Of a DNA stretch of 31,145 bases, positions 2,460 to 31,145 are shown in pieces. Positions within the stretch are counted from its first letter, which is position 1; each line of letters opens with the position of its first letter. The DNA is from a virus. The translations under genes were made by a program, and so were the position numbers. The notes below the pieces were generated by a model that saw nothing but the letters and a program-made list of their open reading frames with translations, searched no databases and was not told where the DNA came from. Location: IMG/VR virus record IMGVR_UViG_3300046753_000145, positions 1-31,145 of that record; one strand, 5' to 3'.

Positions 2460-2488
2460 AATTTAATACCCCTATGAATTTAATAGGG
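2460..2488 (+). repeat. Pair of AATTNAATA + C/G-run motifs (operator-like)
   Basis: Two copies 17 bp apart: AATTTAATACCCC at 2460-2472 and AATTTAATAGGG at 2477-2488. The segment CCCTAT - 7 nt - ATAGGG between them can form a 6-bp hairpin. A TATATTTG box that would suit a Bacteroidetes -7 element follows at once (2489-2496), without a clear -33 TTG. This belongs to the dispersed motif family also seen at 11.71, 12.53-12.63, 14.29-14.37, 16.46-16.52 and 28.15 kb. Confidence 0.6.
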
Positions 2489-2553
2489 TATATTTGTATC
2501 GTATTCGGGTATAACCTGTTTTCATTTGATTTTTTTATTTTGTTTTCTATATT

Positions 2554-3835: not shown

Positions 3836-4114
3836 ATGAAAACTAATTACGTTAAAGTAGATATGCAGGGTTTAAGTAAATTAACCTTTGCCGAGAAAGC
3901 AGTATTTTCTTATATTAAGTCTTTGTCTTTGGATAAGGGTTATTGCTTTGCAACAAACAAGCACTTGTGCGATGTTTTGTCTATAACAGACAGGACTATG
4001 TACAGAATACTAAAGAAGTTAGAAGAGAGTGCCTGTATAAGAAGAGAGACAAGAAGTATCGGTACTGATGGGAAACAAAGAAAGATATTTGTTAATCCTC
4101 AGTTTAAGCAGTAA
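3836..4114 (+). CDS. Winged-helix (HTH_36-like) protein, candidate replication initiator
   Basis: 92 aa. The sequence fits a single winged helix-turn-helix: KLTFAEKAVFSYIKSLS (15-31), then the recognition unit CFATNKHLCDVLSITDRTMYR (37-57) with ILKKLEESACIRRET, and a basic wing. HTH_36 domains are typical of phage and plasmid replication initiators (DnaD/RepA-like) and of small regulators. The gene is followed at once by a 17-bp iteron array with a palindrome, and then the primase-helicase, which is how many initiator-origin units are built. An origin-binding role is therefore inferred. A transcription regulator is the alternative. The first iteron begins at the last base of its stop codon. 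Confidence 0.65.
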   Translation: MKTNYVKVDMQGLSKLTFAEKAVFSYIKSLSLDKGYCFATNKHLCDVLSITDRTMYRILKKLEESACIRRETRSIGTDGKQRKIFVNPQFKQ

Positions 4115-4232
4115 CATGTTACGATACGATACATGTTATATAAAGAATTATAATATGAATCATATTATATATCTTTAACAAACATGTTATAATACGATAC
4201 ATGTTATAATACGATACATGTTATATAATTAT
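4114..4232 (+). repeat. Candidate replication origin: 17-bp iterons around a palindrome
   Basis: Unit ACATGTTATAATACGAT occurs at 4182 and 4199, with variants at 4114 (ACATGTTACGATACGAT), 4131 and 4216 (only the ACATGTTATA head kept). All spacings within each group are 17 bp. Between the groups lies a perfect inverted repeat, TATAATATGA and TCATATTATA around a single A (4149-4169). The block ends in an A-rich run before the primase-helicase ATG at 4264. Regularly spaced repeats, a palindrome, high AT content and position between an HTH gene and the primase are the marks of an iteron origin. Operator function for the HTH protein is the alternative. Confidence 0.7.
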
Positions 4233-5991: not shown

Positions 5992-6287
5992 ATGCAAACC
6001 AAAAAGAGATTGTACAGCAATTAAGAAAGATAGGTATTTCAGTATTGCACACACACCAGTTAGGTAGGGGTGCGCCTGATATAATTCTTGGCTATAGAAA
6101 CGAGAATTTTATGATAGAACTGAAAGACGGAAACAAAACAAAGAGTCAACAAAAACTAACGCCTGATGAAATAGAGTTTCAAGCTAAGTGGCAGGGAAAC
6201 TATGCCGTTTGCAACTCACTAGAACAAATATTAAGCGTTATAGATTATGTTGACGAAACAAGAGTTATTAGAAAAACTAGCAAATAA
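5970..6287 (+). CDS. VRR-NUC domain nuclease
   Basis: 105 aa, a stand-alone VRR-NUC domain. The motif GRGAPDIILGYR (32-43, D37) is followed by NFMIELKDGNKTKSQQKLTP (46-65) with the E50-x-K52 pair, then FQAKWQGNYAVCNSLEQIL. These are the signature blocks of the family, a PD-(D/E)XK branch that includes structure-specific nucleases acting on flaps and Holliday junctions. The start ATG lies inside the primase-helicase gene. The gene end overlaps the sigma-like gene by 41 nt. The likely task is resolving replication intermediates. Confidence 0.88.
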   Translation: MRKKARVDANQKEIVQQLRKIGISVLHTHQLGRGAPDIILGYRNENFMIELKDGNKTKSQQKLTPDEIEFQAKWQGNYAVCNSLEQILSVIDYVDETRVIRKTSK

Positions 6288-6786
6288 ATACGATGATTGG
6301 TTCAATATGGCACATTCATTTAAGATTAGTAAGGCAAATGCTGAAGAGCTTGTGCAAGAAATGTTTGTTAGAATCTTTGATTATGTTAAAGACCCTCAGA
6401 AAATTATGTACAATGAGACTGAGGTCAACACGTTTTATATTTATATAACATTAAGAAATTTATATTATGCGAACATTCACACAAGCGGTAAAAAGAATCC
6501 AATCGTATTTACAACGGATGAGATTACGGATGATAATTTTAAAGGGCTGTATGAGGATAGCATGGATATTATCGAAGAGAAAAAGGAGCTGGAAGAGTCT
6601 CTGGAGCGAATCGAAGAGATAGTAAATGATTGGTATTGGTACGACAGAGGCATATTCAACCTTTATTATCAAAAGGGAATGTCGATGCGAGAGATTGCCA
6701 AAGAAACAAAAATAAGTTTAAGTAGTATATTTAACACATTGAAAAATGCAAAAGAAGTCATCAGAACAAAAACATCAAGAGATTAA
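6247..6786 (+). CDS. Sigma-70-family-like transcription factor
   Basis: 179 aa. The N-terminal part (13-75) resembles sigma region 2: NAEELVQEMFVRIFDYVKDP (31-50) and the aromatic stretch FYIYITLRNLYYANI. An acidic linker follows (about 88-126). The C-terminal GMSMREIAKETKISLSSIF (144-162) is a region-4-type helix-turn-helix that would contact the -33/-35 element. The size and architecture are those of small ECF-like sigma factors. It probably redirects host RNA polymerase to phage promoters. Late units here are preceded by an unusual ACAC/TATTATTTA pair that it may read, which is inference. It overlaps both neighbours by 41 nt, so it is part of the replication operon and made before late genes. 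Confidence 0.75.
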   Translation: MLTKQELLEKLANKYDDWFNMAHSFKISKANAEELVQEMFVRIFDYVKDPQKIMYNETEVNTFYIYITLRNLYYANIHTSGKKNPIVFTTDEITDDNFKGLYEDSMDIIEEKKELEESLERIEEIVNDWYWYDRGIFNLYYQKGMSMREIAKETKISLSSIFNTLKNAKEVIRTKTSRD

Positions 6787-11711: not shown

Positions 11712-11724
11712 AATTAAATACCCC
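11712..11724 (+). repeat. Single AATTNAATA + C-run motif after terL
   Basis: AATTAAATACCCC, 4 nt after the terL stop, is a one-base variant of the dispersed motif. The rest of the 144-nt gap up to the end of the minus-strand genes (11725-11852) is AT-rich. I see no clear terminator there for either of the two converging transcripts. Confidence 0.5.
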
Positions 11725-12050: not shown

Positions 12051-12311
12051 TCATCTCTTTGCTTTGTTTATTATCGAAATCAAATCTAGTAGATTATCGA
12101 TATTGGTAAACCTTATCTCGTGGTCTGCATCAAATATCTCCACATACCACATACCATCTTCTTTTTCAGCTTCATCACTATCACAGCTCAATAATCTGAA
12201 ACTATTTGTAAGGTCATAAGTGTAGTAGTACCAATCTTTTGGGTTACCGCTTTCTTTTGCTGTTACATCTAATCTTTCAAATCCTGCTTGTTCTAAATCT
12301 TTCTCAGTCAT
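12051..12311 (-). CDS. Conserved small acidic protein (minus-strand operon)
   Basis: 86 aa, beginning MTEKDLEQAGFERLDVTAKE. Alternating strands and aromatic residues (DWYYYTYDLTNSFRLLS, GMWYVEIFDADHEIRFTN) suggest one compact alpha/beta fold. A family of this shape is common in Bacteroidetes phages and prophages, as I recall, without known function. It overlaps the upstream gene by 8 nt and abuts the downstream one. Confidence 0.7.
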   Translation of the reverse strand: MTEKDLEQAGFERLDVTAKESGNPKDWYYYTYDLTNSFRLLSCDSDEAEKEDGMWYVEIFDADHEIRFTNIDNLLDLISIINKAKR

Positions 12312-12699
12312 TTTCTATTTCCTTTTGTAAGTTCGCTAACGCCCTCCAAGCCACCTTAGCGGAGTGCCTGATGCCATCGGTATCAATAGTACCAGCTTGA
12401 AGTAAGTGCCGAGAGAGAGCATCTAATTCGTCTCCTGACTTGCTTCTATCCCAATGAAGTGGTTTATCTGGATTGTGTTGCTGATTTCCTACGTATGAAA
12501 CTTTAGAAAGTTCACGTATAGCATCTGGAAAGTAATTCAATACCCCACTAAAGACAGGCATTTGTTTCCTTGTGAATTTAATAGGGGTGTCCTCTTCTGT
12601 AAATTCAATACCCCCCTGTGAATTTAATACTGCCTTGTCCTCTAGTATCAATCCGTTATTTATATCCCATTTATACATATATTCGTTTTTTGTGTTCAT
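12304..12699 (-). CDS. dATP/dGTP diphosphohydrolase-like protein (DUF5664 / dGTP_diPhyd_N)
   Basis: 131 aa. Residues 49-126 match the phage DUF5664 family, named after a dATP/dGTP diphosphohydrolase: VFSGVLNYFPDAIREL, then a histidine/aspartate frame H75, H82, WDR (83-85), GDELDALSRHLL (D90, H98), DGIRHSAKVAWRALANL (H112). The acids and histidines suit an all-helical metal-dependent nucleotide hydrolase, so it may tune the dNTP pool. The family call is good; activity is inferred. The first 48 residues look poorly conserved and contain in-frame copies of the dispersed AATTNAATA motif. It is the first gene of the minus-strand operon, with a -7 box 4 nt before its ATG. Confidence 0.72.
   Translation of the reverse strand: MNTKNEYMYKWDINNGLILEDKAVLNSQGGIEFTEEDTPIKFTRKQMPVFSGVLNYFPDAIRELSKVSYVGNQQHNPDKPLHWDRSKSGDELDALSRHLLQAGTIDTDGIRHSAKVAWRALANLQKEIEND
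12534..12630. repeat. Four AATTNAATA + C/G-run motifs inside a coding region
   Basis: On the plus strand: AATTCAATACCCC (12534), AATTTAATAGGGG (12575), AATTCAATACCCCCC (12602) and AATTTAATAC (12621). They lie in the 5' part of the minus-strand hydrolase-like gene and are read there as GVLNY, TPIKFT, GGIEFT and AVLNS. The frame stays open through all of them. The same elements are otherwise mostly intergenic. Confidence 0.7.
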
Positions 12700-12703
12700 A
12701 CTA

Positions 12704-12711
12704 CAAATATA
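12704..12711 (-). promoter_or_regulatory. -7 box of the minus-strand operon, 4 nt before the ATG
   Basis: Read on the minus strand this is a perfect TATATTTG, four bases ahead of the ATG at 12699. No TTG occurs at the right distance upstream, so the -33 part is missing or degenerate. Transcript start would fall at or next to the ATG (leaderless). It is divergent to the plus-strand promoter at 12748-12775. Confidence 0.55.
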
Positions 12712-12729
12712 GTAAATATTTTACAATTC

Positions 12730-12752
12730 CTTAACATTGGCTTAACATTGGG
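12730..12752 (+). repeat. Tandem 11-bp element upstream of a promoter (copy 1)
   Basis: Two head-to-tail copies of CTTAACATTGG plus a G, identical over 23 bases to 14665-14687. A decayed third copy (GTAACATTAGG) follows. The second copy contains the -33 TTG of the promoter. The 11-bp period places each copy on the same DNA face, as expected for an activator or repressor site. Confidence 0.75.
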
Positions 12753-14240: not shown

Positions 14241-14292
14241 TTTAGCAACAGGAATTTTATTTTTGCTCATCTTAATTTTGTTGGCACAATAA
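14233..14292 (+). CDS. Tiny hydrophobic peptide (possible gene)
   Basis: 19 codons, MISLATGILFLLILILLAQ, essentially one membrane helix. The ATG lies 5 nt before the preceding stop (ATGATTAG), a coupling arrangement. It is too short to prove by coding statistics; the uninterrupted hydrophobic run is the only support. Its stop coincides with the first of five dispersed motifs. Confidence 0.3.
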   Translation: MISLATGILFLLILILLAQ

Positions 14293-14374
14293 ATTCAATA
14301 AGTATAAATTTAATACCCCCTTTTGTAAATTCAATACCCTGTCAATTCAATAGGGGTATCAATTCAATAGGGGG
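14292..14374. repeat. Five AATTNAATA + C/G-run motifs, intergenic cluster
   Basis: Copies at 14292 (AATTCAATAAGT), 14307 (AATTTAATACCCCC), 14328 (AATTCAATACCC), 14344 (AATTCAATAGGGG) and 14361 (AATTCAATAGGGGG). Steps are 15, 21, 16 and 17 bp. The first three end in C-runs or none and the last two in G-runs, so C- and G-runs could pair in RNA. This is the densest cluster and lies at the end of the 12.8-14.2 kb operon. Confidence 0.8.
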
Positions 14375-14664
14375 TTTATACTTGGATTTTGGGTGTGTAG
14401 GGGTTGCCTTACATTATGTAGGAAAAATCTTACGTCAAGGTGTGGATAGTCCATTTTGCAAAAATACAAAATTGTATGTTAACTTAATGTTAAATTTTAA
14501 ATTGTACATTTAACTAAAACTTAACACGTTTTGTTTGCATATATAAAAAAGCGTTTTAAGGTGCTTTTTAAGCGTTTTAAAGCATCTTTTCCTTTCTTTA
14601 GTATCTTACTATTAAAATTGTGAGAAATGGCATTAAACTAAATTTTACAATTACTTAACAATTT
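14375..14664. other. AT-rich intergenic region with direct repeats
   Basis: No convincing gene. It holds two copies of AAGCGTTTTAA 21 bp apart (14549 and 14570), which is two helical turns, several TTAAC/GTTAA words, and GTTTTGTTTGCAT (14528-14540), which resembles a -7 box with one base off but lacks a spaced TTG. Probably a control region ahead of the promoter at 14683. Confidence 0.4.
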
Positions 14665-14687
14665 CTTAACATTGGCTTAACATTGGG
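14665..14687 (+). repeat. Tandem 11-bp element upstream of a promoter (copy 2)
   Basis: Same 23 bases as 12730-12752: CTTAACATTGG twice plus G. Again the second unit carries the -33 TTG, here with a 16-nt spacer. Confidence 0.75.
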
Positions 14688-16459: not shown

Positions 16460-16522
16460 AATTCAATAGGGTTACTTGTAAATTCAATAGGTATTACTTA
16501 TCTTTGCTTTAAATTCAATACG
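16460..16522 (+). repeat. Three AATTNAATA motifs over a promoter (operator-like)
   Basis: AATTCAATAGGG at 16460-16471 (before the -33 TTG), AATTCAATAGG at 16481-16491 (inside the spacer) and AATTCAATACG at 16512-16522 (ending just before the ATG). A protein bound here would cover the polymerase site, so this is the best functional clue for the dispersed motif. Confidence 0.72.
16476..16506 (+). promoter_or_regulatory. Bacteroidetes-type promoter overlapped by motif copies
   Basis: TTG (16476-16478), a 20-nt spacer and TATCTTTG (16499-16506). It serves the gene at 16523 and possibly the region beyond. Confidence 0.75.
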
Positions 16523-16786: not shown

Positions 16787-16795
16787 CTGGTTACT

Positions 16796-16930
16796 CATGT
16801 TATTATATAAAGCATGTTATATATTTTATATAGAGTGCAACATGTTATTATTCATTCTGAAACATAACTGTCTTAAAATGCATATTAAGATATTATACAT
16901 GTTAGGATACTTTAAGATATATGTTATATA
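16796..16930 (+). repeat. Second cluster of CATGTTAT repeats (iteron-like)
   Basis: CATGTTAT heads at 16796, 16813 (17 bp apart, as in the 4.1 kb array) and 16841, CATGTTAG at 16898 and TATGTTAT at 16920. After the first two come TATATAAAG or ATATTTTATATAG, like the variant unit at 4131. The block fills the 208-nt gap between 16786 and 16995 and is nearly all A+T. A hairpin CTGCC-GTATG-GGCAG follows (16935-16949). An overlapping 65-codon ORF is not credible. Confidence 0.65.
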
Positions 16931-27596: not shown

Positions 27597-28151
27597 ATGG
27601 CTTGTGATTTAACTGGAGGAAGATTAAGACCTTGTAAAGATGCCGTAGGTGGCATAAAGAAAATTCACTTTGTAGATTTCGGAGACTTAGGAACTTTGAC
27701 TATTGGTTCTAGCGATGAGATTACAGACATGAGTGGAACTTTCAATTATTACACCTATGACGTTAAAGGTAACTCTTCCCTTGAAACTAACATTACATCC
27801 TCTATGGAGAATGGAACAACATTCTTTGAGCAGGTTGTAAATATCACACTATTTAAGCTAACTAAAGAGGATAACAAAGAATTGAAACTTATGGCGTATG
27901 GTAGACCACACGTTATTGTTCAAACTTTTGATGATAAGTTCTTATTGGTTGGTGCTGAAAATGGTGCTGACGTAACTGGCGGTACTGCCGTAACTGGTAC
28001 TGCTATGGGAGACCTAAATGGATATACACTTACATTAACCGCAAATGAAATCCGTATGCCATCTTTTGTTGAGGGTGCTACTGATGCCGACCCATTTGCA
28101 GGTATGACAAGTGCTACTGCTACTGAGGGAACTCAAAGAGACCCATCATAA
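27597..28151 (+). CDS. Probable major tail tube protein
   Basis: 184 aa. MACDLTGGRLRPCKDAVGGI, then YFT-type strand blocks: TFNYYTYDVKGNSSLETNIT, NGTTFFEQVVNITLFKLTKE, and LVGAENGADVTGGTAVTGTA MGDLNGY-like turns. The even beta-strand pattern, glycine-rich hairpins, high-expression codon use and isolation between two terminators suggest an abundant virion protein. In flavobacterial phages a protein starting MACDxTxGRxxPCK lies near the capsid gene and is taken as the tail tube; I am not certain of that assignment. A capsid decoration protein is the alternative. Confidence 0.6.
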   Translation: MACDLTGGRLRPCKDAVGGIKKIHFVDFGDLGTLTIGSSDEITDMSGTFNYYTYDVKGNSSLETNITSSMENGTTFFEQVVNITLFKLTKEDNKELKLMAYGRPHVIVQTFDDKFLLVGAENGADVTGGTAVTGTAMGDLNGYTLTLTANEIRMPSFVEGATDADPFAGMTSATATEGTQRDPS

Positions 28152-28181
28152 ATTTAATAGGGGTATGAATCTAAAAGGGGG
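28151..28181 (+). repeat. AATTNAATA motif and decayed copy before a terminator
   Basis: AATTTAATAGGGG (28151-28163) begins at the last base of the gene's stop codon. AATCTAAAAGGGGG (28168-28181), 17 bp further on, looks like a diverged copy whose G-run forms the left arm of the next terminator. Confidence 0.55.
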
Positions 28182-30609: not shown

Positions 30610-31145
30610 GTATATACGATAAAGCAAGTTTAGTACAGATACCTAGCGGATATAATGCAGGTACGTTATATAGCGTACTTCCTAATACTTCTGATGGGGA
30701 TTTTACACACGATAGAAGTTTAACAACAGCTACACGAGTAAACAAAGATGGTCTTATAGAAAGTGTTGCTGCTGATGTACCTAGACTAGACTACCCATTA
30801 ATAGATGGAGTAGTACAGGATTGCCCTACTTTACTTTTAGAGCCACAAAGAACGAATTTACTTTCATATAGCGAAGATTTTTCACAACCAACACGATGGC
30901 TTGTATCTTTTATGACTGTTACAACTGACGATGCAGTTGCGCCCGATGGCAGTCAAACAGCCGACAAAGCTGAAGCGACAGGCGCAGGTAGTATAAGAAC
31001 AAATAATTCTTACACCGTTACAAGTGGTTATTCTTTTTCTATTTTTGTAAAGAAAGGCAATTCAAGATATGTTACTTTGCGCTCTTTTGCGTTTACTACA
31101 AGTGCTATAATAGGTTTTGATTTAGATACCGAAACAGCACAGACA
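30606..31145 (+). CDS. Tail fibre / receptor-binding protein, N-terminal part (3' end continues at window start)
   Basis: 180 codons visible. The head MSIYDKASLVQIPSGYNAGT and DLT-free AYKAGTLYS-like turn are followed by PLIDGVVQDCPTLLLEPQRT, NLLSYSEDFSQPTRW, and TAPDGSQTADK-type carbohydrate-binding repeats. 'P.LLLEPQRTNLL.YSEDF' is a well known block of phage tail fibres and of phage proteins with LamG domains. The reading frame continues at position 2, giving 413 aa in the closed circle. Two amino-acid differences between the two ends (IQ at left, AE at right, after ADK) fall in this gene. Confidence 0.85.
   Translation, partial: MSIYDKASLVQIPSGYNAGTLYSVLPNTSDGDFTHDRSLTTATRVNKDGLIESVAADVPRLDYPLIDGVVQDCPTLLLEPQRTNLLSYSEDFSQPTRWLVSFMTVTTDDAVAPDGSQTADKAEATGAGSIRTNNSYTVTSGYSFSIFVKKGNSRYVTLRSFAFTTSAIIGFDLDTETAQT
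30938..31145. repeat. Right copy of the terminal overlap
   Basis: Matches 1-208 without gaps, with five mismatches (about 97.6% identity by count). Two of the three clustered changes alter the fibre protein. Marks the redundancy of a circular assembly. Confidence 0.9.

Follow-up and report, generated by a model that had tools for sequence, protein, structure and literature searches.

A tailed-phage genome of 31,145 bases (the window, meaning the whole stretch of DNA analysed here) carries a dispersed, conserved, non-palindromic element, motif I, that stands singly or in arrays of 2-7 copies at gene-block borders. On balance, we favour the reading that these sites are one-way operator arrays for an ECF-sigma-like phage protein (6247 below, after the start of its gene), which would act at promoters and terminators. 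In sister phages the element is replaced by other words, and these lineage-specific words point to a gene-control protein encoded by the virus that would have evolved together with its docking sites.

The window is a virus record with terminase, portal, tail, lysis and replication genes. Its ends (1-208 and 30938-31145) overlap by 208 bp at 98% identity within one tail gene, which suggests that the map is circular and that the sequence varies at the junction. By terminase, the nearest isolates are the Nonlabens phages P12024S/L (Inhavirus, 55% identity), which makes the host probably a marine flavobacterium. These isolates share with the window phage a common gene order and a sigma-like gene near the terminase, but they are without motif I and the recognition helix differs. 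P12024S (L147) has a weak polarised word, AAGCCTATTAA, in 4 copies on a single strand only, which could be its own one-way motif. A blastn search with 12.7-17.7 kb against phage records gave no match, a tRNA/tmRNA scan found none, and in Rfam nothing reached gathering level.

The original prediction of a dispersed motif proved real. The core AATTNAATA has 27 matches in the window (24 on + and 3 on -), against 6.35-6.5 expected and a maximum of 15 in dinucleotide shuffles. With CCC or GGG directly after it, the count is 12 on + and 0 on -, where 0.057 are expected (maximum 1 in 300 shuffles), and the prediction survives this comparison with shuffled sequence. Of the 12 run-bearing sites, nine fall in non-coding sequence, which makes up only 8.7% of the window. 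The two commonest 9-mers of the window are AATTCAATA and AATTTAATA; a literature search for the motif 9-mers gave nothing relevant, in agreement with the earlier view that the form is undescribed.

A full site is about 13 bp long and consists of TRTGAATTYAATA followed by a GG/CC step. Across 329 unique run-bearing sites of relatives, T-R-T-G/A-AATT-Y-AATA is conserved, then CCC or GGG, so that TRTG forms an extended left flank. At the run positions of 732 unique core sites, CC occurs 228 times, GG 239 times and mixed CG or GC about 64 times. Every copy position given by the prediction was correct (Table 1), and so were the steps of 15, 17 and 21 bp; across relatives 17 is the commonest, followed by 21, 15, 16 and 19 bp.

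Table 1. Motif I sites and associated features in the window, with the start of each motif copy
Feature	Position	Strand	Copy starts	Context
Two-copy array, AATTTAATACCCC and AATTTAATAGGG, step 17	2460..2488	+	2460, 2477	Lysis/replication module border
Bacteroidetes-type -7 box, TATATTTG	2489-2496			Abuts last copy of the 2460..2488 array
ECF-sigma-like protein, candidate regulator, 179 aa, sigma region 2 + region 4	6247..6786	+		
Single site, AATTAAATACCCC	11712..11724	+	11712	Directly 3' of terminase stop
dATP/dGTP diphosphohydrolase N-terminal domain gene (dGTP_diPhyd_N)	12304..12699	-		PF18909, E 5.4e-9; overlaps the 12.5-kb array
Four-copy array (CCCC, GGGG, CCCCCC, CTGC)	12534..12630	+	12534, 12575, 12602, 12621	In 5' part of minus-strand gene 12304-12699
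Five-copy array (AGTA, CCCCC, CCC, GGGG, GGGGG), steps 15, 21, 16, 17	14292..14374	+	14292, 14307, 14328, 14344, 14361	
Three-copy array on structural-gene promoter	16460..16521	+	16460, 16481, 16512	Promoter geometry kept in relatives
Good copy AATTTAATAGGGG and degenerate copy AATCTAAAAGGGGG 17 bp on	28151..28181	+	28151	Head-gene region

The borders that carry arrays (2.46 kb, 11.7-12.6 kb, 14.3 kb, 16.46-16.52 kb and 28.15 kb) are syntenic, and array positions are conserved down to 68% terminase identity. The post-terminase place holds AATTCAATACCCC in L011, L027 and L052. The 14.3-kb array lies inside a 700-bp intergenic region, is followed by TATACTTG at 14377-14384, and has syntenic counterparts of 4-7 copies in relatives; arrays run to as many as seven copies (L053, L056, L060). 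At the structural-gene promoter one copy lies upstream, one in the spacer between TTG (16476-16478) and TATCTTTG (16499-16506), and one just before the start codon of 16523. At the head-gene site the G-run of the degenerate copy is the start of an intrinsic terminator stem (GGGGGTATTTATTACCCCTTTTTTT). For the dGTP_diPhyd_N gene (compared in the window, L108, L114 and L130), near relatives have the minus-strand arrangement behind the terminase; in distant relatives the gene lies behind 6746, on the plus strand, with no array mapped there.

Other repeats are present in the same genome. A second family, ACATGTTATAATACGAT, with a 17-bp step, occupies 4107-4229 just upstream of the primase-helicase gene and has diverged copies at 16795-16930; these repeats are iteron-like and a replication origin is possible there. 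Repeats of CTTAACATTGGCTTAACATTGGG lie at 12705-12752 and 14629-14687, upstream of two small-gene clusters, and similar words, CTTAACATT, are over-represented in sister lineages too.

The orientation of motif I is nearly invariant. Among 80 terminase relatives, 351 run-bearing copies lie along the direction of the terminase and 2 are opposed, and matches to AATTYAATASSS occupy a single strand in each of 20/20 further records, several of the IMG/VR records in the comparison being fragments. The element is thus present in relatives as well as in excess over shuffles, and the original prediction holds on this point also. Its claim that the motif is not a simple inversion is borne out, the element being non-palindromic and strictly one-way. 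Polarity tracks the genome and not the gene, as the 12.5-kb array faces + inside a minus-strand gene; this arrangement, the completeness of the polarity and the TRTG flank go beyond what had been predicted.

A two-copy pattern searched against 2.9 million viral contigs returned 62 stretches, nearly all with the genes of this phage and with constant polarity. The contigs of L136, L097 and L092 are syntenic members of the phage group, and L117 has an array of the same kind. In the GTDB genomes scanned, the pattern was confined to two contigs, both from a single Flavobacteriales MAG, and against the 62 viral stretches a host-encoded factor was rejected. These two contigs (L145, 260-340; L146, 2550-2630) share 3.8 kb at 99.8% identity, with one two-copy site (GGGG/CCCC) and bacterial-looking genes.

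Motif I is specific to one clade. Loci whose terminase is at least 68% identical carry it, save short or truncated fragments, and those at 65% or below have essentially none. A wider terminase search supplied sister lineages at 60-65% identity, in which an unbiased count of over-represented words revealed other one-way motifs. Clade II uses TTAAACGCARTA followed by GG/CC; its TAAACGCA occurs 156 times on + and 5 times on -, in arrays with steps of 17, 19 and 21 at places comparable to those of motif I. Smaller lineages have TTAAACATAGTA-GG, CTTTAACATAGTA and TGTTTAATATGA-GGGG, each on + only, clades III-V being represented by few genomes each. Replacement can be followed at single positions: the array at 2460..2488 has an orthologous array in clade I relatives and TAAACGCARTR copies instead in clade II. 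The spot behind the YRGQGR* gene is filled by two copies of AATTYAATA in clade I and by one or two copies of TAAACGCARTR in clade II; in both clades GGGTATA or similar comes next.

Motif I occupies a single clade of the terminase tree (support 97/98), and all motif labels together require 7 changes, against 20.2 when shuffled. Motif III is found on two branches, and label changes are therefore not one-to-one with lineage. Some sites fall in coding sequence: clade II motif copies lie within the terminase gene in L194 (10344, 10987) and orthologues, and one copy extends over the stop codon of that gene (the TAA of TAAACGCA) in L194 and L214. In L223, motif III is accompanied by eight AATTYAATA words that all lie on + and lack the GG/CC step.

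The most likely binder among the phage proteins would be 6247. It matches TIGR02937 above cut-off (E 1.1e-12), as do 18/18 members, and also PF08281 and phrog_1740; weak matches extend to phrog_36 'transcriptional regulator' (E 3e-5) and to Q-like families. The best Foldseek matches of its predicted model, of moderate confidence (pLDDT 72.5, pTM 0.45), are ECF sigma factors, with TM 0.82 to region 4 of sigma-E; a sequence search of solved structures gave no match. Within the motif I clade, its recognition helix (ISLSSIFNTLKN, residues 156-167) always reads I[ST]LSSIFNT; elsewhere the sequence is ISLTSI[YF]NSC, ISLTSIFNS, IGLTSIHNS or another. Loci with the LSSIFNT helix have run-bearing motif I sites in 66/73 cases (389 sites in 942 kb), the seven exceptions being short or partial loci, against 1/19 of the loci without it (1 site in 230 kb). 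This co-variation is partly shared descent, because all genes differ between clades; the clustering of switched columns in the recognition helix (4/8) is not significant alone (Fisher p 0.18).

Other DNA-binding proteins fared less well as candidates. In the DnaA-like protein 9289 no columns are switched, and the HATVLH-type helix persists in most lineages while the motifs change, and the HTH_36 protein 3836 has no match in mapped clade II genomes, which do carry arrays. The small terminase has clade-switched columns too.

The places occupied by the arrays suggest where such a protein might act. TAnnTTTG is the known Bacteroidetes -7 consensus. The 16.5-kb promoter has the form TTG-N20-TAnnTT[TA]G, with one copy lying two bases behind TTG and its motif core five bases from the start of the TTG, and the geometry TTG-N5-motif-TAnnTT[TA]G is maintained in relatives. 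A -7-type box lies within 60 nt of 14 of the 69 non-redundant arrays (background 7.7%, p 7e-4), and a hairpin with a T-run lies within 60 nt of 11 (background 0.6%, p 3e-13); in 44/69 neither a recognisable -7 box nor a terminator lies within that distance. In distant members the array leads directly into an intrinsic terminator, for example CCCCCC..GGGGGTTTTTTT in L093. The spacing between site and -7 box is variable (7, 11, 12 and 18 bp), and this speaks against an activator of a rigid class.

The original prediction saw alternation between C- and G-runs as part of the pattern, and this part did not stand: we find no code, runs are interchangeable at orthologous sites, and complementary neighbouring runs number 39, where 39.0 are expected by chance. 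In the spacer of the structural-gene promoter, for instance, the orthologous run is GGG in L020, CCC in L024 and L033, and GG in L027. Since GG on one strand is CC on the other, both versions present the same base-pair step, and a protein responding to the shape of this step instead of its letters would accept either; such shape recognition would explain the tolerance of both runs.

Taken together, we infer an operator in double-stranded DNA that is asymmetric, consists of TRTGAATTYAATA and a GG/CC step read by its shape, is used singly or in tandem at transcription-unit borders and is most likely bound by 6247 through the helix-turn-helix of its sigma region 4. One protein would sit on each site in uniform orientation and meet the host RNA polymerase with a constant geometry: at promoters from a site in the -33/-7 spacer or abutting the -7 box, and at terminators from a site just ahead of them. 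Through such contacts a regulator made early could re-set units transcribed later in infection. More tentatively, and with rather less than even confidence, we propose that an ECF-sigma-like protein has turned into a many-site, orientation-dependent regulator of both initiation and termination, whose operator words are replaced wholesale together with its helix around a strand-blind GG/CC step.

It is possible, if clearly less probable, that the sites serve stoperator-like repression, in which a phage repressor, 6247 or another protein, would halt initiation and elongation by the host RNA polymerase and so provide silencing or superinfection immunity. Sites of 13 bp that are asymmetric, genome-wide, in one orientation, placed in promoters and between genes, and of clade-specific consensus are all reported in cluster A mycobacteriophages, and arrays that close operons just ahead of terminators also fit. 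However, we found neither a tyrosine integrase (PF00589) nor an HTH_3 repressor (PF01381) in 20 related records, which are possibly fragments; Pfam and PHROGs scans showed no stoperator-repressor homologue in the window proteins that they covered, and tandem arrays of up to seven copies are no stated feature of stoperators. A lysogeny module was rejected on the same 20 records, possibly incomplete as they are. For 6247 as the regulator, the lack of integrase and HTH_3 repressor in these records is why we lean towards activation of middle or late units as the sign of regulation, with stoperator-like blocking nearly as likely and antitermination a third possibility.

We consider it unlikely that the motif is the -35 part of a bipartite promoter for which 6247 is a genuine sigma factor. 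Its sigma regions 2 and 4, the ECF models above cut-off and the directionality of promoters would agree with this, but among 103 non-redundant last copies no strongly conserved element, such as a second (-10) box, lies at any fixed distance beyond the site. Steps of 15-21 bp are too variable for such a promoter, the last copy touches the start codon at the late promoter, and host-type TTG-N20-TAnnTTTG promoters are already present there.

An element acting in RNA, whose C- and G-run copies pair in the transcript as terminator or antiterminator hairpins, is quite unlikely. The 14.3-kb array does fold unusually well (z -4.2), and the final G-run makes up an intrinsic terminator's stem in distant relatives. 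Against this, three of the five places (the 12.5, 16.5 and 2.46 kb arrays) fold no better than shuffles, many arrays contain C-runs only, and the promoter-spacer copies lie upstream of the inferred transcription start. With runs interchangeable and their pairing at chance, RNA hairpins are therefore not the rule.

We regard as improbable, too, that these are one-way packaging or replication sites for a small terminase or an iteron-binding initiator. Orientation and the switched columns of the small terminase are compatible with such a role, but at least five operon borders carry sites, which do not cluster at one origin or pac site, the behaviour of 3836 and 9289 described above does not follow the motif, and separate iteron-like repeats exist at 4107-4229. 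A selfish tandem repeat spreading without function would account for the differing copy number of arrays between relatives, but it is made very improbable by strict polarity, syntenic places, replacement of the core at orthologous positions and confinement to operon borders.

Transcription control in marine Bacteroidetes phages is little described in the literature searched. The candidate regulator-operator pair proposed here, with five motifs and matching helices in some 150 environmental contigs, offers natural specificity variants, and the DNA specificity of a sigma-like protein is therefore directly testable.

In layout, the closest known system is the stoperators of cluster A mycobacteriophages, asymmetric 13-mers that are oriented in correlation with transcription and no longer give repression once reversed (PMC9283540), with a consensus that is group-specific (PMC6550527). 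Motif I shares with the sites of these phages (L5, Bxb1, TipsytheTRex) the asymmetric 13-bp form, more than 20 sites per genome, an orientation tied to transcription, a position in promoters and intergenic spaces, and a group-dependent consensus. Unlike them, it comes with no homologous repressor seen in the scanned window proteins, with no integrase found, with tandem arrays of 17-bp step, with a strand-flipping GG/CC step and with a sigma-like candidate binder. This suggests that stoperator-type one-way operators arose outside actinobacterial temperate phages, in phages in which no integrase was found. ECF sigma factors resemble 6247 in their region 2 and region 4 architecture, sequence and predicted fold, whereas their promoters have two boxes with a fixed 16-18 bp spacer, a form that the 103 non-redundant motif I sites do not take.

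In the use of repeats, the closest known system is the Ltr/RinA/Alt regulators of Gram-positive phages. According to PMC13123087 (citing Quiles-Puchalt et al. 2013), these act with four imperfect repeats upstream of late promoters, the repeats being 18 bp long in phage phi13 and spanning -76 to -32 in TP901-1. As in our proposal, an early-made phage regulator works through about four direct repeats at a late promoter; the structural-gene promoter has 3-4 direct copies, as in Ltr/RinA-type arrays, and other places have 2-7. Ltr/RinA/Alt regulators serve one late promoter, whereas in Bacteroidetes phages motif I arrays are found at a number of operon borders and terminators, and the candidate binder is an ECF-sigma homologue. 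Membership in neither family can be claimed for the motif I system, which may nonetheless work in the manner of stoperators or of Ltr arrays.
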